From a virus: a DNA stretch of 42,784 nt. The stretch is from the IMG/VR virus record IMGVR_UViG_3300010391_000252, positions 1-42,784 of that record; one strand, 5' to 3'. The notes below the pieces were generated by a model. The model saw nothing but the letters and a program-made list of their open reading frames with translations. It did no database searches and was not told the DNA's origin. This document shows positions 15,775-40,772 of the stretch, one piece after another. Both the position numbers and the translations under genes were made by a program. Every line of letters begins with the position of its first letter. The first letter of the stretch is position 1.

Positions 15775-16163
15775 CTCTCCCTTACCTTCCTCCTCACATA
15801 ATCAGGCTCTAACCCCAATCCCTCGCATACCGACACGAACGACCCGGCCCACGCTGGGTCATCAGATTCGATCCATGCCCTAGCCTCTATACGTCTCCGG
15901 GACTTGATGCCGGGTTCAGGTCTGCCCCCATTATTACCAGTACCACCAGGGAACCGCTTGACAGCCCCTTCTCGCCCCACCAACCGAATGTCCACAGTAC
16001 CGGGTAAGGCATCCATCAGAGCACACGTCAAGATGGCATAGAAGAGTCGTTTCTCCCCGGACCATGATGTTGAAGTGTCAAGTTGACCAGGGAGTAGCCC
16101 TTCTGGCTGTAAGAGGGCATCGGTGACGCCATAATCTACGCCTGTGAATGCCTTAACATTCAT
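15765..16163 (-). CDS. Conserved small replication-region protein, 132 aa
   Basis: Start ATG 16163 has GGAG about eight bases upstream, inside the end of the polymerase gene. The product includes SGEKRLFYAILTCALMDAL, then RRRIEARAWIESDDPAWAGSF and VCEGLGLEPDYVRRKVRERW. The EA-x-WI-x-SDD ... F-x-x-VCE-x-LGL-x-P-x-x-VR pattern recurs in small phage and prophage proteins of unknown function; the C-terminal part looks like a small helix-turn-helix. Lies between polymerase and exonuclease genes. Confidence 0.65.
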   Translation of the reverse strand: MNVKAFTGVDYGVTDALLQPEGLLPGQLDTSTSWSGEKRLFYAILTCALMDALPGTVDIRLVGREGAVKRFPGGTGNNGGRPEPGIKSRRRIEARAWIESDDPAWAGSFVSVCEGLGLEPDYVRRKVRERWE

Positions 16164-18717
16164 TCTCAAACTCCTCTCTGGAAGGTAAGAGCTTCCATTC
16201 CTTCATGTCTAGCCAGTTACGGCCTACCTTGATCCCTATCGGCATAGCCATGGACCAGGGACCACCAGCGCCGGGGTAGGTTCGTTCGACACCCATTCCC
16301 TCACTGAGATACCTGGCGATGTCGTAGGCATGCTTAGGGAGGCTTGTGACGTTCAGGGAGTCGTGGCCCTGTTGCACGATGTTGGCACCAGGGAACATCC
16401 CCTTGGTGATGTCCTCGCTGAGAGGTACGAAGCCTAGACGGTTGGTGATGACCCCCACCTCATGCTGGGGTAGCTCCGCATACCCTTCCTTGTAGTCTTC
16501 CTTGGACAGGCGTAACCCCTTGAAGTAGTACCGTCTCCCCCAGCTAGACTCTAGGTACCCTAGTTCTATCATCTGCTGGCGCACCCACGCATGGTAGCGG
16601 CCGAGCCCTGGGGTACTCGCATGCAGCCGTGCTAGCCATTCTGTACATTCATCAGGGTCCAACACCACAGCACCCTCCGTCTCGACAAGGGTGATCTCGG
16701 CCATCCGCGGGCCCTCCATGCCGTAGTTGGCGGCATGACGAACCCGCTTGCCGAGCTGGCGTTGCTCCATGGCCTCGGAGTCACCAGCTTGGTAGGCCGC
16801 AATGAGCTCATCATACTCCCGCTCGAATATCTTGGAGGCATTGAGGATGTGCTGGTCCATCTCGGTCGGCAACATCCGAGCTAACCTCTGGAGTTCGGGG
16901 TCTCCTGTCATGCCATCGACGATGCGGGATTCCCCTTGTGACTGGTCTACCTCTACCAGCACATGACCAGGGTTCGCTATGAACATCTTGCGGAGGTCAG
17001 AGTGGCGGTCTCGGTTCTGGGCGTTGATACCCTCTACCTTGGAGATTGCTGACGATCGCAGGCGCCCCGTCTTGGCGGTAGGAGTATACCGTGATCGCAT
17101 ACGACCATCCTTGCTTACGATGGTTTCTCTGAGCTCTTGAAGAATCTTCGCATGGCCCCGGTAGCCCAAGACCAACTGGCCCATGGGCTTCGCCTTCTTG
17201 TACTTCCGCATGAGGCGACGGATGGCGAGCTCGTCAGCGGTACGGTTGCTAGTCCCCCGGCGATAGAAGGGCTTACACTTGAGGGTGTCATAGAAGTAGG
17301 AGGTGACCCGGGGTCCCGACAACCCCTTCTCCGCCACCAAGTCTATCCCTGCCATGGTCATCATGTCGGATCGATGTTGGGCTACCAGAGCCTTCTCCCG
17401 TAGCTCCATGGCATGGCGAGCTTGGTTATCCACGGCGAACCCCACCTGTGTCAGGTGCAGGCATGCGGTAGAGAGTCTTCGGTAATGGTCTCGGTAGACA
17501 GGCATAAGCCCCTGCGCCCGAAGCTGACCCCAGTATTGCTCGTCGGGGTTACCGATCAATGCACGGGTCCTGCTCACATCCTTCCCGTTGTACGTAAGAA
17601 ACTGGGGCCGGTCCTTGGTTCGCTTGCCAGGCTTGCCATCCTCCTTGGCCTCCGTCTTCCAGAACTTCACACGGAGGTCTCGGGATGCACAGTAGGCAAG
17701 GGTGTGCTGATCCCTAGGGTCCAAACAGTGATGCATTTGATGGGAGTCCCAGCGAGAGTTGTTAACTGTCTTCCCTTTCGCCCACAATACGTAGAGATCA
17801 TACAGTCCAAAATGCCAGCCCTTGGCGATGGGATGGGCTAGCAACCTCCCAACTGTTTTCCACCAGCCCTTGTCGGCGTGTAGGTCGAAGGTCATGGAGA
17901 AGTCAGGGGTAAGGGAGAACCCGATACAGTCAACTACCTTTCCATGCGCCACCGTCTCGATGTCACACGCCAACACCGCTGCACGGGAATCCTTCTGGTA
18001 GGTCTGATGCACTAGCATCTCGAAATGGTGTGCATCCTTCTGTGTCGGGTCGATCATGTGGTGGCAGCGAGGATCGAGCCTCAACTCGGGGAAGTTCTTG
18101 TCCCCGAGGATACGAAGCCAGTCGCTTTGCCACACATCGAAAGCATCTCCAGCTCGCAAGACGAATGCAGGATGGAAGGTCGGTATCACCTTGACCCGTG
18201 TACCAGAATTGGTACGTGCCCAGAAGATACTCCCTCGCCAGTTGTGAATCTTGTCCCGCCAGTCGATGATCTTGCCTTGGGGAGTGGCCTTCAACTTCCA
18301 GGTCCCCTTCTTGGTCACAGGTAAAGGGGTGCGTCGAAGGGTATTGAGAGCTAGGTTGCCCATCGGGATGACCACGGTGGGTGATAGATTCTCTAGCCGC
18401 CTCCAGAAGTCCTCCTGCCACTTGGCCACAGTAGCCGGAGTTAGCCTATGCACCGTGTTCTCGGGAGGTCTGACCTCCCCCACGTTCTCGATCCTCACAT
18501 GCTCCCGACGTAAGCCCATCATGGTGAGGCCGGCGAACTTGGTGGGGCCTGTGTAGTCCCGCCCCTCGAAAAGGAACCGGCCCGAGGTCCCTACGAAGGG
18601 CTCCCCGGCTGCGTCCTCTTCCTTCCCGGGCATCTCTCCCACTAACAGCACCGGGGCGCCGGTCGGGCCCACACCCGATACGCGGCGTCCTGTGATACCA
18701 GAGAAGGGGGTTTTCAT
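16153..18717 (-). CDS. UDG-like domain / 3'-5' exonuclease / family A DNA polymerase
   Basis: The replicative polymerase, 854 residues. N-terminal ~205: uracil-DNA glycosylase family 4-like fold (LLVGEMPGKEEDAAGEPFVG, VGEVRPPENTV, FHPAFVL) without visible Fe-S cysteines. About 245-400: proofreading exonuclease with Exo I CDIET, Exo II GWHFGLYDLYVL and Exo III YNGKDVSRTR. The rest is a PolA palm/fingers: motif A EVDQSQGESRIVDG, O-helix motif B GKRVRHAANYG, motif C QGHDSLNV. Motif C reads HDS instead of the usual HDE. A UDG-like domain in front of a family A polymerase is known from phage SPO1. Start: ATG at 18717 sits in the HNH stop (TGATG), so translation is coupled to that gene. Confidence 0.93.
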   Translation of the reverse strand: MKTPFSGITGRRVSGVGPTGAPVLLVGEMPGKEEDAAGEPFVGTSGRFLFEGRDYTGPTKFAGLTMMGLRREHVRIENVGEVRPPENTVHRLTPATVAKWQEDFWRRLENLSPTVVIPMGNLALNTLRRTPLPVTKKGTWKLKATPQGKIIDWRDKIHNWRGSIFWARTNSGTRVKVIPTFHPAFVLRAGDAFDVWQSDWLRILGDKNFPELRLDPRCHHMIDPTQKDAHHFEMLVHQTYQKDSRAAVLACDIETVAHGKVVDCIGFSLTPDFSMTFDLHADKGWWKTVGRLLAHPIAKGWHFGLYDLYVLWAKGKTVNNSRWDSHQMHHCLDPRDQHTLAYCASRDLRVKFWKTEAKEDGKPGKRTKDRPQFLTYNGKDVSRTRALIGNPDEQYWGQLRAQGLMPVYRDHYRRLSTACLHLTQVGFAVDNQARHAMELREKALVAQHRSDMMTMAGIDLVAEKGLSGPRVTSYFYDTLKCKPFYRRGTSNRTADELAIRRLMRKYKKAKPMGQLVLGYRGHAKILQELRETIVSKDGRMRSRYTPTAKTGRLRSSAISKVEGINAQNRDRHSDLRKMFIANPGHVLVEVDQSQGESRIVDGMTGDPELQRLARMLPTEMDQHILNASKIFEREYDELIAAYQAGDSEAMEQRQLGKRVRHAANYGMEGPRMAEITLVETEGAVVLDPDECTEWLARLHASTPGLGRYHAWVRQQMIELGYLESSWGRRYYFKGLRLSKEDYKEGYAELPQHEVGVITNRLGFVPLSEDITKGMFPGANIVQQGHDSLNVTSLPKHAYDIARYLSEGMGVERTYPGAGGPWSMAMPIGIKVGRNWLDMKEWKLLPSREEFENEC

Positions 18718-19169
18718 CAACGAGACCGCCGCGCTGCCCGTCGATACTCACACAACTTACAACTTCTATTCTTTTTCAGGTTTTCTATGGTGCGTCTGTG
18801 TCCTCGCAAGCAATATAATTGACGAGGCCGCTTCGCCAACGCTCGACGGTTATTCTCTGCCGTACTAGTCGCGTCTAGGTGTTGGGGATTGACACAGCTA
18901 CGATTGCTGCACAGATGGTCCACAACCTCTTGCGGCTTCAGTTCCCGGTTGAAGAACTGAAAGGCCCACCTATGGGCTGAGACCATGCCATTCAACCAAA
19001 ATCTACCATATCCGGCCCGGTTCTTCCCGATCCACGCCCAACATCCACGGGTTACGCGAACATGAGACATGAACCGGGCAAGAACCGGATTCCGGTATTG
19101 CCGACAGTGGGAACATCGGTATTGCACCAACCGACGCCCCGTTATTCCGCTGAAAGGTGTGAGAGCCAT
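18717..19169 (-). CDS. HNH endonuclease whose N-terminus copies that of the polymerase
   Basis: A 150-residue homing-type nuclease: CSHCRQYRNP, a beta-beta segment GCWAWIGKNRAGYGRFWLNG, the HNH core AHRWAFQFFNRELKPQEVVD-HLCSNRSCVNPQHLDATS and a C-terminal zinc motif (CLRGHRRTIENLKKNRSCKLC). Residues 4-13, TPFSGITGRR, are identical to residues 3-12 of the polymerase that follows, but the codons differ at nine of ten positions. Stop overlaps the polymerase start by one base. This suggests that the gene arrived carrying the 5' end of a diverged polymerase gene. Confidence 0.88.
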   Translation of the reverse strand: MALTPFSGITGRRLVQYRCSHCRQYRNPVLARFMSHVRVTRGCWAWIGKNRAGYGRFWLNGMVSAHRWAFQFFNRELKPQEVVDHLCSNRSCVNPQHLDATSTAENNRRALAKRPRQLYCLRGHRRTIENLKKNRSCKLCEYRRAARRSR

Positions 19170-19183
19170 CAGCGGGCAGCTGT

Positions 19184-19336
19184 CTACTTACTCGCCTTCT
19201 TCAACTTCTCCACGATGGCATCCTTGATGAATGACATCTGGGTGACATCCACCTTGACACAGTGGAGCTTGAGAGCTCGACAGACCTCTCGTGGTAGACG
19301 GGTTGCTAGGACTGTGTAGTTGATTTCCGTTGCCAT
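19184..19336 (-). CDS. Ribbon-helix-helix (Arc/CopG-like) protein, 50 aa
   Basis: Reads MATEINYTVLATRLPREVCR then ALKLHCVKVDVTQMSFIKDA and a Lys-rich helix. A single strand (INYTVLATRLP), helix A (REVCRALKLHCVKV), turn and helix B (QMSFIKDAIVEKL) match RHH DNA-binding dimers. Located between the ssDNA-binding-like and HNH genes; probably a local transcription regulator. Confidence 0.7.
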   Translation of the reverse strand: MATEINYTVLATRLPREVCRALKLHCVKVDVTQMSFIKDAIVEKLKKASK

Positions 19337-19339
19337 GGC

Positions 19340-19924
19340 CTATTCCTCGTCCTCGTCATCGGTGCCGGTGCGCTTGGCAGGAGTAGGTGTCTCCTCCTCA
19401 TCCGTCACCGCGGCCTTCTTCTTGAGGGATGTCACCTTCCCCTTGGGCTTTCGTGCTCCCTTCTCCTCGGCCTCCCCGATCTCTGGGGCATCCTCGTCGC
19501 TGGGCCGGTAGGCCTTGCCCGGCCGATTTCGGATGTTGTCCTCATCGTCGAGTTTGGCACTGACAGATGCGATGAACTGGTTACCAGCCGCAGCCTCCAT
19601 CCACTCCTCATCGTCCTCGGACAACGGGGTACCTGAGCGAAGTAGGACACGCTTGAGTTTACCCGGGCCCTTCTCGCTCCCCTCGGTCCAGGTCCCCTTC
19701 TCTTTGGCGAGCGGGTCTGTCTCGGTCCCCACCACGATCCAGTCACGGAGCATGAAGCCCGCGTACTTCTTCGGCTCCACGATCTTGTAGTCCATGACAT
19801 ACATCCGCAGACCTTTCTCCTTGGTCTTCGAACGCTCGATACTGGTGATCTCCAGTAAGGCGCCTGTCAGGGCCTTGATAGACCCCGACTGCTCCTCGGT
19901 CTCCTCGAAAAACGATTTGCCCAC
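19340..19924 (-). CDS. Probable single-stranded DNA-binding protein
   Basis: 194 residues with a beta-rich front (GALLEITSIERSKTKEKG, RMYVMDYKIVEPKKYAGFML, RDWIVVGTETDP) followed by a low-complexity charged tail ending in an acidic stretch (DEEETPTPAKRTGTDDEDEE). An OB-like beta domain with a flexible acidic C-terminus, beside a RecA-like ATPase and a polymerase, is the usual picture of a phage SSB (DUF669/DUF2815-like in position). Identity rests on architecture and synteny. Confidence 0.6.
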   Translation of the reverse strand: MGKSFFEETEEQSGSIKALTGALLEITSIERSKTKEKGLRMYVMDYKIVEPKKYAGFMLRDWIVVGTETDPLAKEKGTWTEGSEKGPGKLKRVLLRSGTPLSEDDEEWMEAAAGNQFIASVSAKLDDEDNIRNRPGKAYRPSDEDAPEIGEAEEKGARKPKGKVTSLKKKAAVTDEEETPTPAKRTGTDDEDEE

Positions 19925-19950
19925 AGGTTGTCTCCTTTCGGTGGGGTTGG

Positions 19951-20799
19951 CTAGGCAGCAACAGTGCCTAGGCGTCGATAGGCTGCATCCTTGCCACGGG
20001 CATCGAATAGCGCCACGTAGAAAGGTAAGGGGCTACACAACTGCTGGAACAACTGAGCCAGGAAGGCGGTCTTCCCCACGTGTGGGTCAGCCATCACGGC
20101 CACATGCATCTCAGCCGGCTTGATCCCCTTAGCCCAGAGAAAGTCCTTGGGGAGCTTCTTCGGAACCATCATGCCCGATGGCACATCGAGACACGATCCA
20201 CACTGATACTTCCCTTCGCTATCGGTCTGGAGCACCCGCACCCACTCGTCACCTTCCTGCCGTGAATAGAGCCGGTACAACTCGGGCCATGCTGACGCAA
20301 ACCGCTTGGTCTCTTCCATCCGCTTTCCCGGCACATAGGGCTGACGTACAGTGTGAATCTTCTCCCCATCCGCCTCTACCTTGTGCCGGTGAATGAGTGT
20401 AGCCACCCCAGTATGACAAGCGAACCCGGGCAGGGCCTTAGTAACGATGTCCCCAGTGATCTTGCTTTCCCCCCCATACCACTGAATCTTCGTCCCACCC
20501 TTGTTCTTGTTATCAGTATCGGGATTGAGAGTATGCTCGTGAAAGAGGAAGGCCGAGTCAGCTAGGCTAGGGATGCTATCGAGGATGAACCCTCCCCACT
20601 TTCCCTTGGCAAGCTCAGCCGTAAACACCGGGATGTAGTCGAGGAGCCGAGAGGCCCCGTCAGTATCCTCCAACACGGCATCGTTGTAGTTCCCCACCCG
20701 ACAGATCAGGGCGCCATCGGGGCCTACCACGTCGTAATACGGGGTACCCCGCTTGTCCTGCTTCGGGGCATTGACTTCCTTGGATGCACTCTCAGCCAC
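19951..20799 (-). CDS. RecA/Sak4-like ATPase, apparently circularly permuted
   Basis: GTG start with a strong aggagggaatt site. The 282-residue product has all parts of a phage Sak4-type RecA-like ATPase but in permuted order. It starts with TPYYDVVGPDGALICRVGNY, reaches Walker B (FILDS, 71-75), continues through QWYGGESKITGD, VATLIHRH and a segment RFASAWPELYRLY, and only then, at residues 231-263, shows the normal N-terminal strand and P-loop: MHVAVMADPHVGKTAFLAQL and LPFYVALFDARGKDAAYRR. Walker A is ADPHVGKT (237-244). In ordinary P-loop ATPases Walker A precedes Walker B. The gene is intact. Likely role: annealing or recombination ATPase in replication. Confidence 0.8.
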   Translation of the reverse strand: MAESASKEVNAPKQDKRGTPYYDVVGPDGALICRVGNYNDAVLEDTDGASRLLDYIPVFTAELAKGKWGGFILDSIPSLADSAFLFHEHTLNPDTDNKNKGGTKIQWYGGESKITGDIVTKALPGFACHTGVATLIHRHKVEADGEKIHTVRQPYVPGKRMEETKRFASAWPELYRLYSRQEGDEWVRVLQTDSEGKYQCGSCLDVPSGMMVPKKLPKDFLWAKGIKPAEMHVAVMADPHVGKTAFLAQLFQQLCSPLPFYVALFDARGKDAAYRRLGTVAA

Positions 20800-20808
20800 A
20801 ATTCCCTC

Positions 20809-20943
20809 CTAGTACAAGGCGCGGAAGGGCAAGGTTGCCAGCCACGCCCCTAGCCATGCTGCTTGCATAACAATCCCAATCGCAAATCCCAGTCCCATGA
20901 TGAGCACCAAGCCCATTGCGATCCCTGTTACGGTGTCACGCAT
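20809..20943 (-). CDS. Small membrane protein, 44 aa
   Basis: MRDTVTGIAMGLVLIMGLGF then AIGIVMQAAWLGAWLATL: one long or two short membrane helices with small residues (Gly/Ala). It lies just ahead of the permuted ATPase gene, whose Shine-Dalgarno follows this stop. Function unknown. Confidence 0.55.
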   Translation of the reverse strand: MRDTVTGIAMGLVLIMGLGFAIGIVMQAAWLGAWLATLPFRALY

Positions 20944-20952
20944 CGCAGTCAG

Positions 20953-20982
20953 TTAATACGACAATCAAGCCAACAACGTCAA
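20953..20982 (-). promoter_or_regulatory. Sigma-70-like promoter on the minus strand
   Basis: On the minus strand TTGACG (20982-20977) is followed, 18 bases on, by TATTAA (20958-20953), ten bases before the start of the 44-residue membrane protein gene. It lies in the only real gap in this part of the operon, directly after the nuclease stop, and would drive the ATPase, SSB and polymerase genes. Confidence 0.5.
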
Positions 20983-20993
20983 TAGCGAAGATG

Positions 20994-21983
20994 CTAGGCA
21001 GTCTGCGCCCGGGCATCGGCTATGGCATCTACATGGCGCTGGGCATGGGCAAGCGGGTCCCACTTCTCCCGCACCATCGACCGTACAGCCCCCTTCGGTC
21101 TCCCCATCTCACACCACTCTCTCAAGCTACAGAACCCACACCCGCCATTGAAGCGTCCTTGCATCGGGATACTTGGGATATCCTCCACCGACTGCACCCG
21201 CTCCTGCAACCTGATGAACTGTGCGGCCAGCTTCCGGGCCGTACCTGCCCACGCATCTAACTCGGCCGGGGCCCGGGTGACAGGGAAGAGGACATGGTTG
21301 GCATGGGTGACACCACACTCTGAGTAGGGCACCCCATGCCGGGCACACTTGCGATCGCTCCCAGGAAGGTTCGGGAGCTCTACCCCATTGATATAGACCC
21401 CCGACAAGGGAATGTCCCGCTCCCTCGCTAGCCATAACTGTCCCGAGAACTGACTACTGTCATCCTGCCGCCGCTTGAAGTAGTCCCCGGTACGAGAGGT
21501 GCTCTTGTGATCAAGAGAGTAACGGCCCCCGGTGCGCGACTTGGCCAATGCATCCAAGAGGGCGACCATGACTACCCGATGACCCCTGATATCCTCCGCC
21601 AGCACAGCCCCGATAGGCACCTCGACCTCCTCGGGCTTCACCACCAGCGGCCACTTGTCAAGAGGATGGGTCTGGAACCAGTGGGTGAGGATACGTCGAA
21701 CGGTCCGCCAGGCTAGCCGATCATCCCCGGGCACGTGCTCCTGAGCCCACCCCTTGTAAGCGAGGTCGAATCGCTCTAGGGCTTTGGGGACAGGCTGCTT
21801 ACACAACCACCACGCCAGGGCCTCGTGGACTGCCGATCCACACCGTAACTCCTTGGCTTCCTCGGAGGTCTTGAGACCGAGGACATGCTCCATGGCAGCC
21901 TTCGTATGACAGGTGGCCACGGCACTAAGGATCGTGTTGTCTACGACGAGGTCACTCTTTTGTAACTTGGGCATGTACGTCAT
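20994..21983 (-). CDS. Cas4/RecB-like PD-(D/E)XK nuclease with probable Fe-S cluster
   Basis: 329 residues. Nuclease motifs: SAVHEAL (His ~53), acidic EEVEVP (~118-123), ALLDALAK (Asp ~144), YSLDHKSTSRT (D158-x-K160) and QFSGQLWLARE (Gln ~178), the order of PDDEXK_1 enzymes. Cys 25 plus a C-terminal trio (CGFCSLREWC) matches the four-cysteine Fe-S arrangement of Cas4/AddB. Such nucleases often accompany Sak4-type ATPases and act as recombination exonucleases. Start ATG 21983 is chosen because it overlaps the upstream lipoprotein stop (ATGA). An earlier in-frame start would lie within the lipoprotein gene. Confidence 0.82.
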   Translation of the reverse strand: MTYMPKLQKSDLVVDNTILSAVATCHTKAAMEHVLGLKTSEEAKELRCGSAVHEALAWWLCKQPVPKALERFDLAYKGWAQEHVPGDDRLAWRTVRRILTHWFQTHPLDKWPLVVKPEEVEVPIGAVLAEDIRGHRVVMVALLDALAKSRTGGRYSLDHKSTSRTGDYFKRRQDDSSQFSGQLWLARERDIPLSGVYINGVELPNLPGSDRKCARHGVPYSECGVTHANHVLFPVTRAPAELDAWAGTARKLAAQFIRLQERVQSVEDIPSIPMQGRFNGGCGFCSLREWCEMGRPKGAVRSMVREKWDPLAHAQRHVDAIADARAQTA

Positions 21984-22168
21984 AGAGCTACCACAGCGGT
22001 AGGGAACTTCCCCCGTAAACACTCCACCATGCAATCGTGACACTTCGGGACCATTCTACCATCCCCACAATCTCCCCGGCAGAAGTCTACGCACAAATTG
22101 GTAGGTTCGTTGGGTTCAGGAGTGCACCCGAGAAGGACGAGTAGGATGAGGGGGGCTAGCTTAAGCAC
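21980..22168 (-). CDS. Small cysteine-rich lipoprotein, 62 aa
   Basis: GTG start overlapping the upstream stop by eight bases. A short signal with lipobox LVLLGC places a lipidated Cys at about residue 15. The mature part has six further cysteines (CVDFCRGDCGDGRMVPKCHD and more), suggesting disulfides outside the cytoplasm. It could act in superinfection exclusion or envelope modification. Position amid recombination genes is odd. No family recognised. Confidence 0.6.
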   Translation of the reverse strand: MLKLAPLILLVLLGCTPEPNEPTNLCVDFCRGDCGDGRMVPKCHDCMVECLRGKFPTAVVAL

Positions 22169-22337
22169 CGGCTGACTCGGTTACCGGGGCAGTCTGCACT
22201 CTAGGTGGTGTACAGGGGATACAGGTACAGGCCCCCCTTTCAGGGTCCCGTGCCCATGCATAGCCCGTTCGTGAATACCCACACAGAATCTTGTACCAGC
22301 CAGTGACCAACGAACGACGCTTAGTTTTAGGTGTCAT
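22161..22337 (-). CDS. Small protein with CxCxxC motif, 58 aa
   Basis: Starts with ATG in the stop of the XRE-like gene (TCATGA) and ends inside the lipoprotein start. Reads MTPKTKRRSLVTGWYKILCG, then ERGACTCIPCTPPRVQ. The tight frame overlaps on both sides make it a likely real gene. Function unknown; the Cys cluster may bind metal. Confidence 0.55.
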   Translation of the reverse strand: MTPKTKRRSLVTGWYKILCGYSRTGYAWARDPERGACTCIPCTPPRVQTAPVTESAGA

Positions 22338-22522
22338 GATGGCAGTGCTTCTACCCGTGCCCTAAACATCCGATGAGGGATAGCGCGCCCTTGCTCCCAC
22401 TTGCAGACAGTCGATACATGCACGTCTAGCTTCGTAGCCATCTCCACCTGAGTCAACTTGAGGGCCTTGCGTATGGCCTTCATGTGCGCGGCAGACTCTC
22501 GTTTCTGTTTGGCGGTTCCCAC
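22334..22522 (-). CDS. XRE-family helix-turn-helix protein, 62 aa
   Basis: A minimal Cro/CI-type DNA-binding domain: AIRKALKLTQVEMATKLDVH then VSTVCKWEQGRAIP, the standard five-helix XRE core with the Q-x-x-x-A ... S-x-x-S/T-W-E signature. GTG start directly after the upstream stop. Probably represses or tunes early transcription. Confidence 0.8.
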   Translation of the reverse strand: MGTAKQKRESAAHMKAIRKALKLTQVEMATKLDVHVSTVCKWEQGRAIPHRMFRARVEALPS

Positions 22523-35208: not shown

Positions 35209-36473
35209 GGCTCGCCCTCGTACTCTTGCTAGCGTTGGTCGGGGGTGTCCATGCCGACACCATCCACGAGGCAGGTCTTCACGTGTGGCCCTTTGGCCAG
35301 ATGCGGATTGGTCCCCTTCAGTTTGCGGACCTCCTTTCTCCCTGCAAAAGTGGGACAGAGACCTACTGCTCCGATTGCAATCAGACTGATCCATGTACAG
35401 GTGGCGGAACCGGAGCGTGGTCCCAGTGCATCAACGGGACATGGTCCTGTGTATCTGGCGTGGGAGGTGGAAGTGGCAATGTCACCGGGAATGGCCCCGT
35501 GATGATTGGGGAGATTGCGGTCTTCTGTAACCCCTTCGGTACATGTATCGAGGGTATTGGGGTTCCTGGTCTCTGTAGTACCAACACCGAAGCAGCGCGA
35601 GGCGTGGATACCTTTGGAGCGGCGGATGGGTGCCATGAGGTTGCGGATGGAGATGGTGCGGGTGCGGCTACCTCCCTCAACCTCACCGTTGACCCTGCCA
35701 ACTGCACACCACCAGACCTCGCGGTGGGGATCGACGTAACGGGAGCAGCTCAGTGCGTCTCGTCAACTACGACGACATCAACCACTACGACCACCACTAC
35801 AACCACCACTACAACCACCACACTTACCCCCAGCGGTGATGGCTTAGGCTTCCATTCCAACCGCTGGTACGTCAACAAAGAGTCTTCTGGCGCTGGAAGT
35901 TCTTCGCGCACCTTTCCCGCAGGCTTAGGATTCATGTGCTTGTTTCAGCTAGATGGTCGCGTCCATACTTTTAACAAGATTGGGGTACGCTCAGGGGCAA
36001 CTGTAGGGAATGATACAATCCTAGGCATATACCTGATAGACCCTGACGATATGTCAGTAGATGCCATTCTTGTTGATTCTGGCGTGTTGGCTGCAGGGAA
36101 CGCCGCCTCGTCTACCTTTACTGAAGCTACGATAAGCTTTACGACCACCGCGGCACAGACGTTAATCGGCTTAGCAGTCGTAAATGTAGAAGCAGCCGCA
36201 ACTACAATCTTTTCTATTGGAACGGGAGGGGGACAACACTCTCCTGGTATGCTAGGAGCTAACCACCCCTCACAACTTGCAGCGGCAGGGGGCGAAGGTG
36301 CAACAGGTGCTGGAACAGCGATTCCTAATAATTGCTACGGTGTTACCGGGCAACAGGGAGCAACAGCATTACCGTCGGTAGGAAGTTGGATTCTACTCAA
36401 CACTTCAACGCATTCCCCTTTGACATTCTCCGACACCGGCGCTGTCTGGATTCGTGCTTTATCGACACCGTAG
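35202..36473 (+). CDS. Exported fibre-like protein with poly-threonine linker
   Basis: GTG at 35202 overlaps the preceding stop region; the frame is open further up but that part is out-of-frame shadow of the previous gene. The 423-residue product starts with a clear signal peptide (MLRLALVLLLALVGGVHA), then a Cys/Gly-rich domain, a linker of 18 Thr with one Ser (about 187-205; TTTTSTTTTT...), then a ~215-residue beta-rich head (FNKIGVRSGATVGNDTILGI, TLIGLAVVNVEAAATTIFSI). DNA after the linker is markedly more A/T-rich. A receptor-binding or surface adhesin role is likely. Confidence 0.6.
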   Translation: MLRLALVLLLALVGGVHADTIHEAGLHVWPFGQMRIGPLQFADLLSPCKSGTETYCSDCNQTDPCTGGGTGAWSQCINGTWSCVSGVGGGSGNVTGNGPVMIGEIAVFCNPFGTCIEGIGVPGLCSTNTEAARGVDTFGAADGCHEVADGDGAGAATSLNLTVDPANCTPPDLAVGIDVTGAAQCVSSTTTTSTTTTTTTTTTTTTTLTPSGDGLGFHSNRWYVNKESSGAGSSSRTFPAGLGFMCLFQLDGRVHTFNKIGVRSGATVGNDTILGIYLIDPDDMSVDAILVDSGVLAAGNAASSTFTEATISFTTTAAQTLIGLAVVNVEAAATTIFSIGTGGGQHSPGMLGANHPSQLAAAGGEGATGAGTAIPNNCYGVTGQQGATALPSVGSWILLNTSTHSPLTFSDTGAVWIRALSTP

Positions 36474-36477
36474 CCCT

Positions 36478-37236
36478 ATGACCCAAGGCCTCCGCCTAGA
36501 CCTTCCCCCTGGCGAGGAACACCGCTTGAGGGCCGTATCGCGCCTCCGAGCTATCCGTGCCGCCAACGAGGAGAAATACGCTGCCCACCCCTGGCCCTTT
36601 CTCTGTGAAGCCGTCTACACTTTCGATCCCTTCGCAAACGAGCAAGGGGGCGGGATTCACAAGTACCCTGGGGACTCCATCAAGGACCCCTCACCCTCGT
36701 GTGACTGTCGAGAGGGCGGCTGTATCAACTACCTTGAGCATGTCGTCAACGTCTGGTTCGCTAACACCCGTACTGCCTGGCCCAAGTCCCGACGGTTAAT
36801 TACGTCGTGGACCATGATCGCTCTCCACGTGTGGCTCGCCCGCTACCGACCCGGCCAGGTGATAGCGTTCGTCTCTCGCAAGCAAGGCCAAAACGAGGAT
36901 GAAGGGGCCGCCGAGCTCGTCAAGCGTGCTCGGTTCATCGAGGATCACCTCCCTGCGGAGGTCCAGCCTCGTGAGACCAAGCGTACGTGGTGCCGGACGT
37001 GGTACTCTCACAACAACTCGACGATCTTGGGGGTAGCTCAGGGAGCGGACCAGCTAAGACAGTTAGCAATCTCAGCTTGGTTCGGGGACGAGTTTGCGTT
37101 CTGGGAGGCCGCTGCGACAACATACGCAGCTAGCATACCAGCGTTAGAGGGCGGCGGGAGAGTTACTTTGGTATCTACTGCTAATCCTAGCTTTTTTAAG
37201 CAACTGGTGATGGATGAGTGGCATACAGGTACATAA
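36478..37236 (+). CDS. Large terminase subunit, N-terminal ATPase half
   Basis: Powers DNA packaging. 252 residues: adenine-binding region, deviant Walker A (TRTAWPKSRRLITSW, ~98-112), a helix with DEGAAELVKRARFIEDHLP, Walker B AWFGDEFAFWE (D204-E205) and coupling motif VTLVSTANPSFF (~229-240). It stops at MDEWHTGT, exactly where family members continue into the linker and nuclease domain, found 2.6 kb downstream at 39804. Start ATG 36478; an upstream GTG at 36454 would overlap the previous gene. Confidence 0.85.
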   Translation: MTQGLRLDLPPGEEHRLRAVSRLRAIRAANEEKYAAHPWPFLCEAVYTFDPFANEQGGGIHKYPGDSIKDPSPSCDCREGGCINYLEHVVNVWFANTRTAWPKSRRLITSWTMIALHVWLARYRPGQVIAFVSRKQGQNEDEGAAELVKRARFIEDHLPAEVQPRETKRTWCRTWYSHNNSTILGVAQGADQLRQLAISAWFGDEFAFWEAAATTYAASIPALEGGGRVTLVSTANPSFFKQLVMDEWHTGT

Positions 37237-37685
37237 TGGGACGACCTAAGGGTAGTTGGAAGGGAAAAGCGAACCCACGGTGGGCTGATGGGATTAGGTA
37301 CACCAACGGCTACCGAATACGGTATTGCCCCGACCATCCTTATGAAGTTGAGGGGTACGTTCCCGAGCATCGTTTGATTGCTGAGTGGGCATTAGGTCGG
37401 GTATTGGCCCCCATCAACCAAATCCACCATGTCAACGAGGTCAAGGATGATAACAGCCCTGGGAACCTTGTAGTATGTGAAGACCAGGCTTACCACTACC
37501 TCCTACACACGCGAGCGAGGGCAGTCCGAGCAGGCTTCCCTGCCCCCTACCGTCGTTGTCCTTACTGCAAGAGGTACGATGACCCGGTTGGAATGCGACC
37601 TAGATGCGGTGGGCGCGTCTATGCCCACCAGAAATGTCATGCCGCCTACGAGTTGGCCCGGTACCACCGATGTCAGGCAGCCTAA
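37236..37685 (+). CDS. HNH homing endonuclease at the left end of the cassette
   Basis: Starts inside the terminase stop (TAATGG). 149 residues: GRPKGSWKGKANPRWADGIR, YVPEHRLIAEWALGR, then NQIHHVNEVKDDNSPGNLVV (HH...N...NL, HNH_3 pattern) and a C-terminal zinc finger (CPYCKRYDDPVGMRPRCGGR, HQKCH). Typical of intron- or intergenic homing enzymes. Confidence 0.88.
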   Translation: MGRPKGSWKGKANPRWADGIRYTNGYRIRYCPDHPYEVEGYVPEHRLIAEWALGRVLAPINQIHHVNEVKDDNSPGNLVVCEDQAYHYLLHTRARAVRAGFPAPYRRCPYCKRYDDPVGMRPRCGGRVYAHQKCHAAYELARYHRCQAA

Positions 37686-37687
37686 CC

Positions 37688-37882
37688 ATGCGTGCGAAGG
37701 AATACGAAGTGTTCCACCGTGCTGTAGAGGAGGGGGCTGCTTACCGAGCCCATCGCTTTTGGAAGTACAGGGATGATAGCCCCCCTGACTACCTCAACGA
37801 GTTGGTAGAAGCCATCGTGCAGGGAGTCGTGGACAATGTCTGTGAATGGTTTACATTTCCCGAGGACGTGAAGGATGAGTGA
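37688..37882 (+). CDS. Hypothetical helical protein, 64 aa
   Basis: MRAKEYEVFHRAVEEGAAYR then AHRFWKYRDDSPPDYLNELV. Acidic C-terminus. Overlaps the next gene by eight bases. First passenger gene after the HNH gene in the terminase-splitting cassette. Confidence 0.55.
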   Translation: MRAKEYEVFHRAVEEGAAYRAHRFWKYRDDSPPDYLNELVEAIVQGVVDNVCEWFTFPEDVKDE

Positions 37883-38051
37883 GGGAGAGGGGGAGGGGGT
37901 TCCTAAGTATGGTTGGCGAGGCTCCGATCCCCAGTGCATCAGCTGTGGGCGGGAAGTCGTCGCCATGACCAACGGTGTCCAACCCCTCTTCTGTGACGAG
38001 TGTACCGAGCGCTGGGAGAAGGCCTACACTGACGGCAAGTTCTTGGGCTGA
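37875..38051 (+). CDS. Zinc-ribbon protein, 58 aa
   Basis: MSEGEGEGVPKYGWRGSDPQ then CISCGREVVAMTNGVQPLFC DECTERWEKAY: C-x-x-C-x15-C-x-x-C zinc ribbon. Inside the cassette. Function unknown. Confidence 0.6.
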   Translation: MSEGEGEGVPKYGWRGSDPQCISCGREVVAMTNGVQPLFCDECTERWEKAYTDGKFLG

Positions 38052-38087
38052 TCCCCCTAGCCCTCTTGCTGCCTTCCATGGGGGAAT

Positions 38088-38095
38088 GGTAGTCT
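38088..38095 (+). promoter_or_regulatory. Recurring motif GGTAGTCT
   Basis: In the 71-base gap before the 109-aa gene. The flanking sequence (cttgctg ... 18 bases ... TAGTCT) could be a weak promoter, giving the cassette genes their own transcript. Confidence 0.28.
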
Positions 38096-38122
38096 CCCTT
38101 TACCAACTAGGAGGCCTCCTCT

Positions 38123-38452
38123 ATGGCTGCAACGCTTAGCGCTACCGGAACCTGGACCAACCTCTCGACCGTCCTTGACGCAACCCGCTCCAACCTGATT
38201 GGGAATGAGCCCCGTCTTGAGGGTGCCAAGGGTGCCGCTCCCGGTGGCCTCGGTGTCAACTTCGACGTGCTGAAGACGATGGAGGGAGTAGAATTCCCCG
38301 AGCTCAAGCAGTTCATCCAGCTCGTGGCTACCCAGTATGGCCTCTTCTACTGGCCCGCCGCAGCCCTGGTAGACTTCTTCCTCCGGGCCCTCAAGTCAAC
38401 AAAGTCTGACACGGTCCTGGGCGACGAGAACGGCGCCCGGGTCTTCCCGTAA
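38123..38452 (+). CDS. Structural-like protein, 109 aa
   Basis: Strong site aggaggcctcctct before ATG. MAATLSATGTWTNLSTVLDA, then FPELKQFIQLVATQYGLFYW. Its first residues (M-x-A-x-x-SA-x-GTW-x-x-L) match the next gene, so the two may be paralogues. Likely a small virion protein. Confidence 0.6.
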   Translation: MAATLSATGTWTNLSTVLDATRSNLIGNEPRLEGAKGAAPGGLGVNFDVLKTMEGVEFPELKQFIQLVATQYGLFYWPAAALVDFFLRALKSTKSDTVLGDENGARVFP

Positions 38453-38461
38453 GGAGCCATC

Positions 38462-38782
38462 ATGCCAGCCGCCATTTCAGCATCAGGTACGTGGTCCGCC
38501 CTCGACGATCAGAACCCCCCCTCGCAGGCCCCTGGCGCCAATGTCAACGAAGTCCTGCGAGTCCATCGGGATACCGTGGAGCAGCACTTCCAGCCCCGCT
38601 CCCTCGATTACATGCAGTATCCCAACGACGTGGACGGTCACCAGGAAGTGATGCAATTCGTGGGGCTCTTCGCCGCAGGTTACGCTATCGACTCGGCCGC
38701 TGCCTTGACCCGCATCCGAGACATCCTCGAGAGCTTCCAGAATACCGAACAGCTCCCTGAGCGTCGGGTTTACGAACCGTAG
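38462..38782 (+). CDS. Structural-like protein, 106 aa, possible paralogue
   Basis: MPAAISASGTWSALDDQNPP, then VDGHQEVMQFVGLFAAGYAI and DSAAALTRIRDILES. Shares the N-terminal M-x-A-x-x-SA-x-GTW pattern and a helix-hairpin C-terminal half with the preceding gene. Confidence 0.6.
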   Translation: MPAAISASGTWSALDDQNPPSQAPGANVNEVLRVHRDTVEQHFQPRSLDYMQYPNDVDGHQEVMQFVGLFAAGYAIDSAAALTRIRDILESFQNTEQLPERRVYEP

Positions 38783-38791
38783 AGCCCTCCC

Positions 38792-39022
38792 GTGGCCGAT
38801 CTTTTGGCCGATCCTACGCAGGGGAATGGGGGCAAGGCCCGGCGTGATCTTGCCCTGGTAGGAACGTTAGCGGTGTGTGTGGTGTCGACATCCACCCTTG
38901 CGGGCCTTTCCATGTTCTGGCAGCCGGCCCAGTGGGATCTCGTCGACAAGGTTGTAGAGGGCCTTCAGACTCTCAACCTTCTTCTCGCGGGAGGCCTCCT
39001 TGGTGTCCAGAGAGCCAAGTAG
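38792..39022 (+). CDS. Holin-like membrane protein, 76 aa
   Basis: GTG start. Two predicted membrane helices (LALVGTLAVCVVSTSTLAGL and LQTLNLLLAGGLLGVQ) with charged N-terminal (KARRD) and C-terminal ends. Size and topology fit a class II holin; it lies in a run of membrane proteins in the cassette. Confidence 0.5.
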   Translation: MADLLADPTQGNGGKARRDLALVGTLAVCVVSTSTLAGLSMFWQPAQWDLVDKVVEGLQTLNLLLAGGLLGVQRAK

Positions 39023-39109
39023 ATGGTCGCCCTCGTAATCATGCTTGTGTTAGATGCCCTCCTCGTATTGGTCTCTAGCTTCCTACGCTCTGTCCTTTAC
39101 GGTTGCTAG
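39023..39109 (+). CDS. Membrane microprotein, 28 aa
   Basis: MVALVIMLVLDALLVLVSSF then LRSVLYGC: one hydrophobic helix. Starts right after the holin-like stop. Confidence 0.4.
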   Translation: MVALVIMLVLDALLVLVSSFLRSVLYGC

Positions 39110-39110
39110 C

Positions 39111-39308
39111 ATGAACCTTCCCACCCTCACGCGTGGGCTTGTGATCGGCACCGTAGCCCTTTGGGTCGCCTGGGACATCGTTGCTATCGTGCGTGGGGGC
39201 TACGAGGCTAGCGAGACAGCGCAGATTAGACGGTGGAGTAGGTACCCGATGGTTCCTTTTGGGATTGGATTGGTTGTTGGCCATCTTCTATGGCAAAGTT
39301 GCCCATGA
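39111..39308 (+). CDS. Small membrane protein, 65 aa
   Basis: MNLPTLTRGLVIGTVALWVA then WDIVAIVRGGYEAS and a second helix MVPFGIGLVVGHLLW. Two membrane helices around a charged loop, resembling holin-like or antiholin proteins of phages. Stop overlaps the HNH-AP2 start (ATGA). Confidence 0.55.
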   Translation: MNLPTLTRGLVIGTVALWVAWDIVAIVRGGYEASETAQIRRWSRYPMVPFGIGLVVGHLLWQSCP

Positions 39309-39802
39309 GCCCCAAGAATACATACACCATGCTGCCTGGTAAATTGGTTCAGATTGCTCTGACACAGGGGTTCTCAGCGTTGATAAACTTGGTGGACCTG
39401 CCTCTGGTTGCGCCGTATCGCTGGTGTGTCTCATCCGTAAAGGGCAGACACTATGCACGGTGTTATGGGAAAAAGCGGCAATATATGCACCGTCTTATCT
39501 TGGTGACTAGCGAAGTGGATCACCGCAATGGTGATGGGCTAGACAATCGACGGTGTAACTTGCGGAAAGCAACTCACCGGCAGAACATGCAGAATAGTAG
39601 CTGTCGTTCTCATAACAAGAGTGGTTATAAGGGTGTGGTATTTGATGAGAGTCGGAGCCTTTTCCGTGCCACGATTAGGGTGGATGGAAAGCAGCGGCAT
39701 CTAGGTCGTTTCCCGACCGCCGACGAAGCAGCACGAACTTACGACAAGGTGGCGAAGGCTGTATTTGGTGTTTACGCTCGTCCGAACTTCTTGGATTCCT
39801 AA
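39305..39802 (+). CDS. HNH-AP2 homing endonuclease at the right end of the cassette
   Basis: 165 residues: beta N-terminus (GKLVQIALTQGFSALINLVD), HNH core (MHRLILVTSEVDHRNGDGLD then NRRCNLRKATHRQNMQN) and a C-terminal AP2-type DNA-binding domain (SGYKGVVFDESRSLFRATIR, VDGKQRHLGRFPTADEAART). This class is typical of group I introns and free homing genes. It ends one base (G) before the ATG of the terminase nuclease half. Confidence 0.9.
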   Translation: MSPKNTYTMLPGKLVQIALTQGFSALINLVDLPLVAPYRWCVSSVKGRHYARCYGKKRQYMHRLILVTSEVDHRNGDGLDNRRCNLRKATHRQNMQNSSCRSHNKSGYKGVVFDESRSLFRATIRVDGKQRHLGRFPTADEAARTYDKVAKAVFGVYARPNFLDS

Positions 39803-39803
39803 G

Positions 39804-40772
39804 ATGGTTAGGCACCCGAGACCAGGTGTGGAGCAGTGGGTCAATGCCCGGAATGGGTTGACCGTGGTCAAGCTCCACTACACTTGTGATCCTCGCAAGC
39901 GTACAGTCGTATGGAAGGCCCAAGCCTCAGCAAACATGCACCCGCGGGCATGGAGACGCGAGTACGAAATCGACTGGGCCTCCCCCGCTGGTGAACCTGT
40001 CACCCCCGAGTATGCCGAGGAGACCCATTGTCGAGCCTTCGACTGGGACCTCAAGTTGCGACTCCTTCGTTTCTGGGACTTCGGCTTCGTCTCACCGGTA
40101 TGTCTGTTTGCGCAGCTTACACTGTTCGGTCAACTGCGGGTGCGTCGGGAGTTGTGCCCTTTTAACACCCCCCTCGACCAACTCATCCAAGGTATGGAAG
40201 CCATCACCCTAGACCTTGGTGGCTACGACGCTATCCTCGCCCGTATGGATGCATGGGACGTGGGTGGAGCTGATCCTGTCACCCCTGCAGCCTTCGACGC
40301 AGGGGACCCCTCAGGGAAAAACCATACAGACCTGGGGTGTAGTGCTGAGGTCCTAGGGGAGAAGGGGATCACTCTCCACACGACCCGTCCCGGTACCGAG
40401 GTCTCCTACGCCAACCTCCGTGGACGCCTCCTTCGCCATGTTATGGAGCCTGCGGTGGGTCCCGTCCCTGCCCTCATCATTCACCCTGACTGCCACAACC
40501 TCCGTAGCGCTCTTGCTGGTGCCTTTCACTTAGGGCCTCTCCCTCCACACAAGCCCGTCAAGACCCATCCTGAGGGGGACTTGGTTGACGCGTTACGTTA
40601 TGGCGAAGACAACATCCGCCAACTGGTTGGTGGCCAAGCCAGCATACAGATGCGGCAAATGGCCATGGGGGACGTGCGGGAGCTTCGGGCCATTGACGGG
40701 CCAGCCTCCCAGGGAGACACTTGGGCAGATCGTCAACGAGAGAAGTGGGTTACACTCATCGAAGGAATGTAG
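39804..40772 (+). CDS. Large terminase subunit, C-terminal nuclease half
   Basis: 322 residues from ATG 39804 (no Shine-Dalgarno; TTG at 39765 is an alternative). Begins MVRHPRPGVEQWVNARNGLT and VVKLHYTCDPRKR, the linker that normally follows the ATPase domain, then REYEIDW, the nuclease motifs LLRFWDFGFVSPVC (D~92), FDAGDPSGKN (D~166/169) and PEGDLVDALRYG. Together with 36478-37236 it makes a full-length TerL of about 574 residues with no obvious missing segment. Whether the halves work as separate chains or are joined by splicing is not decided by sequence. Confidence 0.85.
   Translation: MVRHPRPGVEQWVNARNGLTVVKLHYTCDPRKRTVVWKAQASANMHPRAWRREYEIDWASPAGEPVTPEYAEETHCRAFDWDLKLRLLRFWDFGFVSPVCLFAQLTLFGQLRVRRELCPFNTPLDQLIQGMEAITLDLGGYDAILARMDAWDVGGADPVTPAAFDAGDPSGKNHTDLGCSAEVLGEKGITLHTTRPGTEVSYANLRGRLLRHVMEPAVGPVPALIIHPDCHNLRSALAGAFHLGPLPPHKPVKTHPEGDLVDALRYGEDNIRQLVGGQASIQMRQMAMGDVRELRAIDGPASQGDTWADRQREKWVTLIEGM

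Follow-up and report, generated by a model that had tools for sequence, protein, structure and literature searches.

Can the core of a phage recombination ATPase run in permuted order, with Walker B first and the P-loop at the C-terminal end of the chain? This question is raised by an open reading frame on the minus strand at 19951..20799 of the window, as we call the whole 42,784-nucleotide stretch of viral DNA analysed here (IMG/VR record IMGVR_UViG_3300010391_000252). The frame comprises 282 codons and begins with a GTG start, 4 nt downstream of a Shine-Dalgarno sequence read as AGGAGGG (20804..20810, minus strand). It closes with a TAG stop, directly after which the next gene's own ribosome site follows. 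A sequence-only reading had proposed a circularly permuted RecA/Sak4-like ATPase at 19951-20799. These coordinates were correct, with the gene on the minus strand, and the proposal itself is supported in our study by swapped profile and blastp matches, a confident AlphaFold2 fold and permuted relatives. We therefore conclude with high confidence that the gene encodes a Sak4-type single-strand-annealing ATPase, consisting of the RecA core only, which is naturally circularly permuted. Segment order, homology, a confident fold prediction, synteny and recurrence were established computationally; the activity and the genetic route are inferred.

The position of the gene alone suggested Sak4. It lies in a recombination cassette with a PD-(D/E)XK exonuclease (20994..22043, minus strand; Pfam PDDEXK_1, 2.2e-12), a DUF669/SSB-like protein (19340..19924, minus strand; weak DUF669 match, homologue in L018) and a fusion of UDG and DNA polymerase A (16153..18720, minus strand; Pfam and homology). 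The order exonuclease - Sak4 - SSB-like - UDG/PolA was found in the window and in most relatives. An SSB role of the 19340..19924 product is inferred from its position and the weak DUF669 match. In annotated phages whose polymerases are similar, the exonuclease has a Sak4, AAA or ATPase gene beside it in a looser arrangement, and the P-loop of these cassette ATPases lies near the N-terminus. In the window, an HNH homing-endonuclease-like ORF (18717-19169, minus strand) is inserted between the SSB-like gene and UDG-PolA, and it opens with residues (TPFSGITGRR) that also begin the UDG-PolA protein. Elsewhere in the window the large terminase looks split (36454-40772, plus strand), with an ATPase-like part at 36454-37236 and a possible nuclease part at 39765-40772; HNH endonuclease ORFs lie at both break points (37218-37685 and 39290-39802) with other genes between them. 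This assignment was read from the sequence, as Pfam gave no match for either part.

Segment order and predicted fold of the window protein

In known Sak4s Walker A is located near the N-terminus, for example K30 in the Sak4 of PA73 (PMC5928155). The window protein does not follow this usual order of Walker A before Walker B. Its Walker B strand FILD (residues 71-74 within FILDS at 71-75; 20578..20589, minus strand; predicted strand 70-74) lies ahead of the P-loop strand with ADPHVGKT (residues 231-244), which is followed by VALFDARGKDAAYRR. The order reported for the 282-residue ORF was thereby confirmed. The Walker A motif itself (residues 237-244; 20068..20091, minus strand), located by motif scan, has its first glycine replaced by alanine and a further conserved glycine by histidine. 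A second P-loop upstream of Walker B would have refuted the permutation, but no second Walker A pattern was present in the six frames of 18701-22500.

We built a test profile from 16 full-length normal-order Sak4s only. The native window protein matched it in two pieces in swapped order, which meet at one model position (52/53): model positions 53-237 at residues 10-207 with 90.3 bits and positions 5-52 at residues 227-280 with 26.8 bits. By profile and blastp, residues 9-207 (20179..20775, minus strand) represent the old C-terminal part, now first, and contain the beta-hairpin, Walker B, the sensor strand and the C-terminal hairpins, and residues 227-280 (19960..20121, minus strand) represent the old N-terminal part, now last, with the P-loop strand, Walker A, a helix and FDxxGKD. 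Any circular cut of the protein at 204-231 resulted in a single match of about 124-127 bits, the best of which reached 127.1 bits over model positions 6-237. When the moved segment was shuffled 200 times the score never exceeded 97.2 bits, so that the swapped match is not due to chance. Similar results were obtained with blastp against the normal-order L031 (record G012), where residues 9-204 aligned with 63-247 (E=4e-31, 32% identity) and residues 230-281 with 19-64 (E=3e-5, 42% identity).

Reordering had been predicted to score far better than the native order. This was the case for the 16-relative profile, in which two swapped matches became one, but the gain with PHROG_124 (Sak4) was small, from E=0.23 for residues 67-219 of the native protein to E=0.034 for residues 8-253 of the reordered one, a match that now spans the P-loop. 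Pairwise comparison with distant annotated Sak4s did not distinguish native from reordered, a Pfam scan of the native protein returned no family at E<=1, and a PDB sequence profile search gave chance-level matches only. The Sak4 homology of the window protein is indirect, via its strong match to the 16-relative profile. The normal-order members of this profile that were scanned match PHROG_124 (L031 2e-7, L026 2.5e-20, L030 4.2e-11), as do the permuted relatives described below (L018 1.9e-13, L025 1e-8, L034 3.9e-7). Judged by its sequence, the window protein is a permuted derivative of the Sak4 family and not a standard member, because the homology is colinear once the protein is recut and the sister genes are in the usual order.

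Structure prediction, suggested together with the original claim as a check, returned a confident fold. AlphaFold2, supplied with an alignment of the permuted proteins and fragments of normal-order ones, gave a model of the window protein with a pLDDT of 86.4 and a pTM of 0.87 (P-loop region about 90-95), and the normal-order L031 reached 88.6/0.87. The model forms one alpha/beta core of 282 aa without a large extra domain, and the prediction has the permuted chain complete the same RecA-like core. The two Walker motifs would then share a single nucleotide site, like those of a normal Sak4, which is inferred from the model without a superposition. In Foldseek, which depends on chain order, the window model had no PDB match at E<=0.001 and only partial matches in BFVD, to phage RecA-like/AAA proteins, whereas L031 matched Sak4 (8rc5), RAD51 paralogues and RecA at probability 1.00. 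This difference is what a permutation predicts for an order-following search.

Permuted relatives, residue conservation and number of origins

Relatives were found with a degenerate DNA pattern for FDxxGK[DE]xxYxR, which yielded a permuted gene in L018 and normal-order genes in L010, L017 and L020, and then with the longer FxxTxPxPxxxxxFDxxGK, which yielded permuted genes in L025 and L034 besides many normal-order ones. A profile scan added five normal-order Sak4s. The same kind of permutation was thus present in three of the 20 other cassette-bearing phages (L018, L025, L034), where the order had been proposed to be sought. The permutation reading holds, and what it had missed is this recurrence and a permuted exonuclease in another phage. 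Since the relatives were collected with conserved-motif patterns, 4/21 is not an estimate for the population. Other searches contributed little. Searched by tblastn, neither the native and reordered window protein in phage and plasmid collections nor the proteins of L034 and L025 in phages gave a useful match, and the L018 protein found only the central part of Sak4 genes in a few Pseudomonas/Xanthomonas phages. Searching viral and genome contigs by the native protein or by a single polymerase or exonuclease revealed no relatives, an alignment of six distant polymerases contained no stretch conserved enough, and the longer motif pattern gave two unrelated matches in genome contigs.

Recutting raised the score against the 16-member profile from 214 to 289 bits for the L018 protein and from 221 to 292 bits for that of L034. 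The L025 protein clearly matched as two domains in swapped order, with 195 and 77 bits, and no single cut fused them. The four cassette genes of L018 share 28-38% identity with those of the window, and the two permuted Sak4s are colinear end to end. Each record has one Sak4 gene (the G014 copy is cut by the ends of its record). The permuted copies of L018, L025 and L034 have an in-frame start and stop, and the ribosome sites of the permuted genes are clear in the window, L018 and L034 and weak in L025. According to the alignment, the cut in the window protein falls after YRRLG-TVAA, and the sequence continues at QDKRGTPYYDVVGPDG. The cut in L034 lies slightly earlier, after PFWHHWEG, and those in L018 and L025 lie about 20 residues later, before LLCRIEHYSD and LIRIEHYCD. 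There are therefore three different cut positions, all within one variable region of ~35 residues between FDxxGKD and the beta-hairpin, and just a few residues connect the old ends.

The permuted copies differ in how far they keep the positions that are near-invariant in normal-order relatives, with 16/32 kept in the window and 28-29/32 in L018, L025 and L034. The window protein retains K243/T244 of Walker A and Walker B, and it has changed a conserved His (L135), two Glu (G36, G116) and two Arg (N99, Y55). Therefore, ATP binding is likelier than hydrolysis in the window copy. Because half of these positions are lost and the window has a long branch (2.3) in the Sak4 tree, it remains possible, though unlikely, that its protein has decayed or been repurposed as a non-hydrolysing one for structural nucleotide or DNA binding and is no longer an annealase, which would be compatible with the permutation. 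The intact ORF, the strong ribosome site, the retained Walker residues and the confident fold argue against such decay. Moreover, the permutation as such does not imply it, because the other permuted copies keep nearly all of these positions. We expect the window protein to bind ATP and ssDNA, and its hydrolysis and annealing may be altered, which is uncertain; there are no biochemical data for any of these activities. Sak4 of HK620 binds ssDNA and performs ATP-dependent annealing, which is stimulated by the neighbouring SSB (PMC5928155). By inference, the permuted Sak4 would act with the SSB-like protein, loading onto ssDNA exposed by the cassette exonuclease and annealing complementary strands for recombination-dependent replication.

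To count origins we used one tree of concatenated exonuclease and UDG-PolA sequences from 20 phages and one Sak4 tree of 20 taxa. In the former the window grouped with L020/L031 (100/100), L034 with L030 (100/99) and L018 with L025 (100/100), so that the phages with a permuted Sak4 form three separate lineages beside normal-order relatives. The Sak4 tree agreed (window+L020+L031 99/98; L034+L030 97/96). A single clade of all four was rejected by the AU test on exonuclease and polymerase (p=5e-8) and on the 20-taxon Sak4 tree (p=0.0068). We conclude that Sak4 was permuted in at least two, probably three independent events in this phage group. A single ancient permutation, followed by reversal or replacement by normal-order genes in several lineages, draws some support from the Sak4-only AU test with 18 taxa, in which one clade was not rejected (p=0.07), from the grouping L018+L025+L034, which was not rejected on the 20-taxon Sak4 tree (p=0.15), and from the location of all cuts in one short region. 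Nevertheless, we consider it improbable in view of the well-supported normal-order sisters beside the window and L034, the rejection of one clade in both trees, the three different cut positions and the permutation of a different gene, the exonuclease, in a further phage.

Still less credible is domain shuffling, in which the C-terminal P-loop would be an unrelated acquired domain or would serve in trans through a swap between subunits. A monomer prediction cannot exclude a domain-swapped dimer, but the C-terminal segment matches just the missing 48 N-terminal profile positions, up to the start of the other part, and shows homology to the corresponding segment of L031. Finally, a chimeric contig, in which a fragment with the P-loop ended up behind the remainder of the gene, has the least in its favour. 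All records are metagenome-derived virus contigs without reads, but four of them from different datasets contain a permuted ORF that is intact and well formed from start to stop, with the flanking cassette genes in place. No detached N-terminal fragment occurs in the vicinity, and the permuted genes stand beside their expected relatives in both trees. Together this leaves an assembly error at 19951-20800, named at the outset as a possible refutation, very unlikely.

Other rearranged genes and possible routes

Natural permutation of the cassette is not confined to Sak4. In G019 (IMGVR_UViG_3300025941_000030), whose Sak4 is in normal order, the cassette exonuclease (L122:758-1807 = G019:40557-41606, plus strand) is permuted. 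The native protein gave two matches of 236 and 70 bits in swapped order, and a recut at 268-281 gave one match of 322 bits. It begins at MNGTTPDRLAHDNVRL and ends with the old N-terminus VLYVDNSTLKAVASCSTQALMRYGLGW...AFVEDE. A scan for swapped-order homology among 2826 ORFs of the 21 phage records revealed nothing beyond Sak4 and this exonuclease except a large structural-looking protein of 791 aa without a Pfam match (L126:13834-16209 = G001:33834-36209, minus strand). The last 44 residues of the latter (748-791) match residues 11-54 of its G008 homologue, and two further stretches within residues 4-723 match 55-540. Profiles of 35 shared families recovered the same three permuted genes and one artefact; this swapped match, at G003:24021-24830 (minus strand), was discarded as an antisense ORF over the Sak4 gene.

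Besides, gene breakage is common in this phage group, as judged by five split polymerases and an exonuclease with a LAGLIDADG insert. UDG-PolA is split into two ORFs in L112, L118, L121, L122 and L124; the split lies at about the same polymerase position in four of them and elsewhere in the fifth, and other DNA separates the pieces. The exonuclease of G017 contains an intein-like insert with a LAGLIDADG_3 match (L120:5508-7289, minus strand), and the polymerase of G020 an insert of ~240 aa (L123:8550-11810, plus strand). Three putative events in Sak4, one in its exonuclease partner and one in the structural-looking protein would add up to probably five independent events in 21 phages. We only tentatively suggest that the group has an unusual, ongoing tendency toward circularly permuted genes, and the case for it is the weaker one. 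Tandem duplication driven by recombination, perhaps that of the annealase-exonuclease system itself, could underlie such a tendency. If true, natural circular permutation would be a rapid evolutionary process, open to observation as it happens.

The two textbook routes to permutation are duplication with trimming, and fission with fusion in the other order (PMC3320104). In the permuted Sak4, the piece from the old N-terminus, comprising the P-loop strand, Walker A, the first helix and FDxxGKD, now lies after the old C-terminus across a very short linker, and the new ends are in the loop that separates FDxxGKDxxYRRLG from the beta-hairpin. The likeliest routes would be a tandem gene duplication whose outer halves were subsequently lost, or fission and swapping followed by fusion. 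The former is plausible because the cassette has a recombination function, the latter because gene splitting is common in the group. The gaps around the permuted genes contained no leftovers of a tandem duplication, and no split-Sak4 intermediate came to light, so that neither route is demonstrated.

Comparison with known systems

The window protein shares with the Sak4 family (HK620 Sak4; PHROG_124; Pfam AAA_24; PDB 8rc5) a fold restricted to the RecA core, Walker A and Walker B, and a gene beside an SSB-like gene and an exonuclease in a recombination cassette. It differs in its permuted segment order and strongly diverged sequence. The sequence-only reading knew of no permuted phage RecA-like ATPase. 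In the literature searched, which excluded subscription literature, we found permuted GTPases, permuted methyltransferases and general reviews only, with no permuted RecA-like recombinase and no paper containing both 'Sak4' and 'circular permutation'. This may therefore be the first natural permutation of the RecA core. It suggests that a RecA-like ATP site tolerates its P-loop element at the C-terminus, and that permutation occurred more than once in closely comparable phages. As normal-order sisters are available, the origin of the permutation and its cost or change in activity are directly testable. Moreover, order-dependent profile and structure searches miss permuted proteins, so that phage genomes may contain more permuted P-loop proteins than are counted; the window gene, with neither a Pfam match nor a significant PDB fold match, is one such example.

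The precedent named for a permuted P-loop NTPase, the YjeQ-type GTPases, is borne out by the literature. YjeQ/RsgA and YlqF/RbgA share with the window protein a P-loop NTPase fold and a permuted motif order (PMC6912228). However, they are TRAFAC GTPases with other motifs and a role in ribosome assembly, and no sequence relation was found. The window protein is not recognisable as a TRAFAC GTPase, with no Pfam family at E<=1 (family level only), and is homologous to Sak4-like phage proteins. In addition, the YjeQ/YlqF permutation defines whole families, whereas that of Sak4 occurs sporadically in a single family of phage genes. The duplication route, one of the two proposed here, is exemplified by swaposin and other natural circular permutants (PMC3320104), but these concern another protein, and the duplicated intermediate was not found in the phage case. 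DNA methyltransferases (Jeltsch 1999; Bujnicki 2002, as cited in PMC3320104) likewise include several permuted arrangements in one family, and truncated duplication intermediates are documented for them (PMC3320104). They differ in fold and function from the phage recombination ATPase, for which no intermediate was found. In contrast to the methyltransferases, the exonuclease that neighbours Sak4 in these phages is itself permuted in another member of the group.
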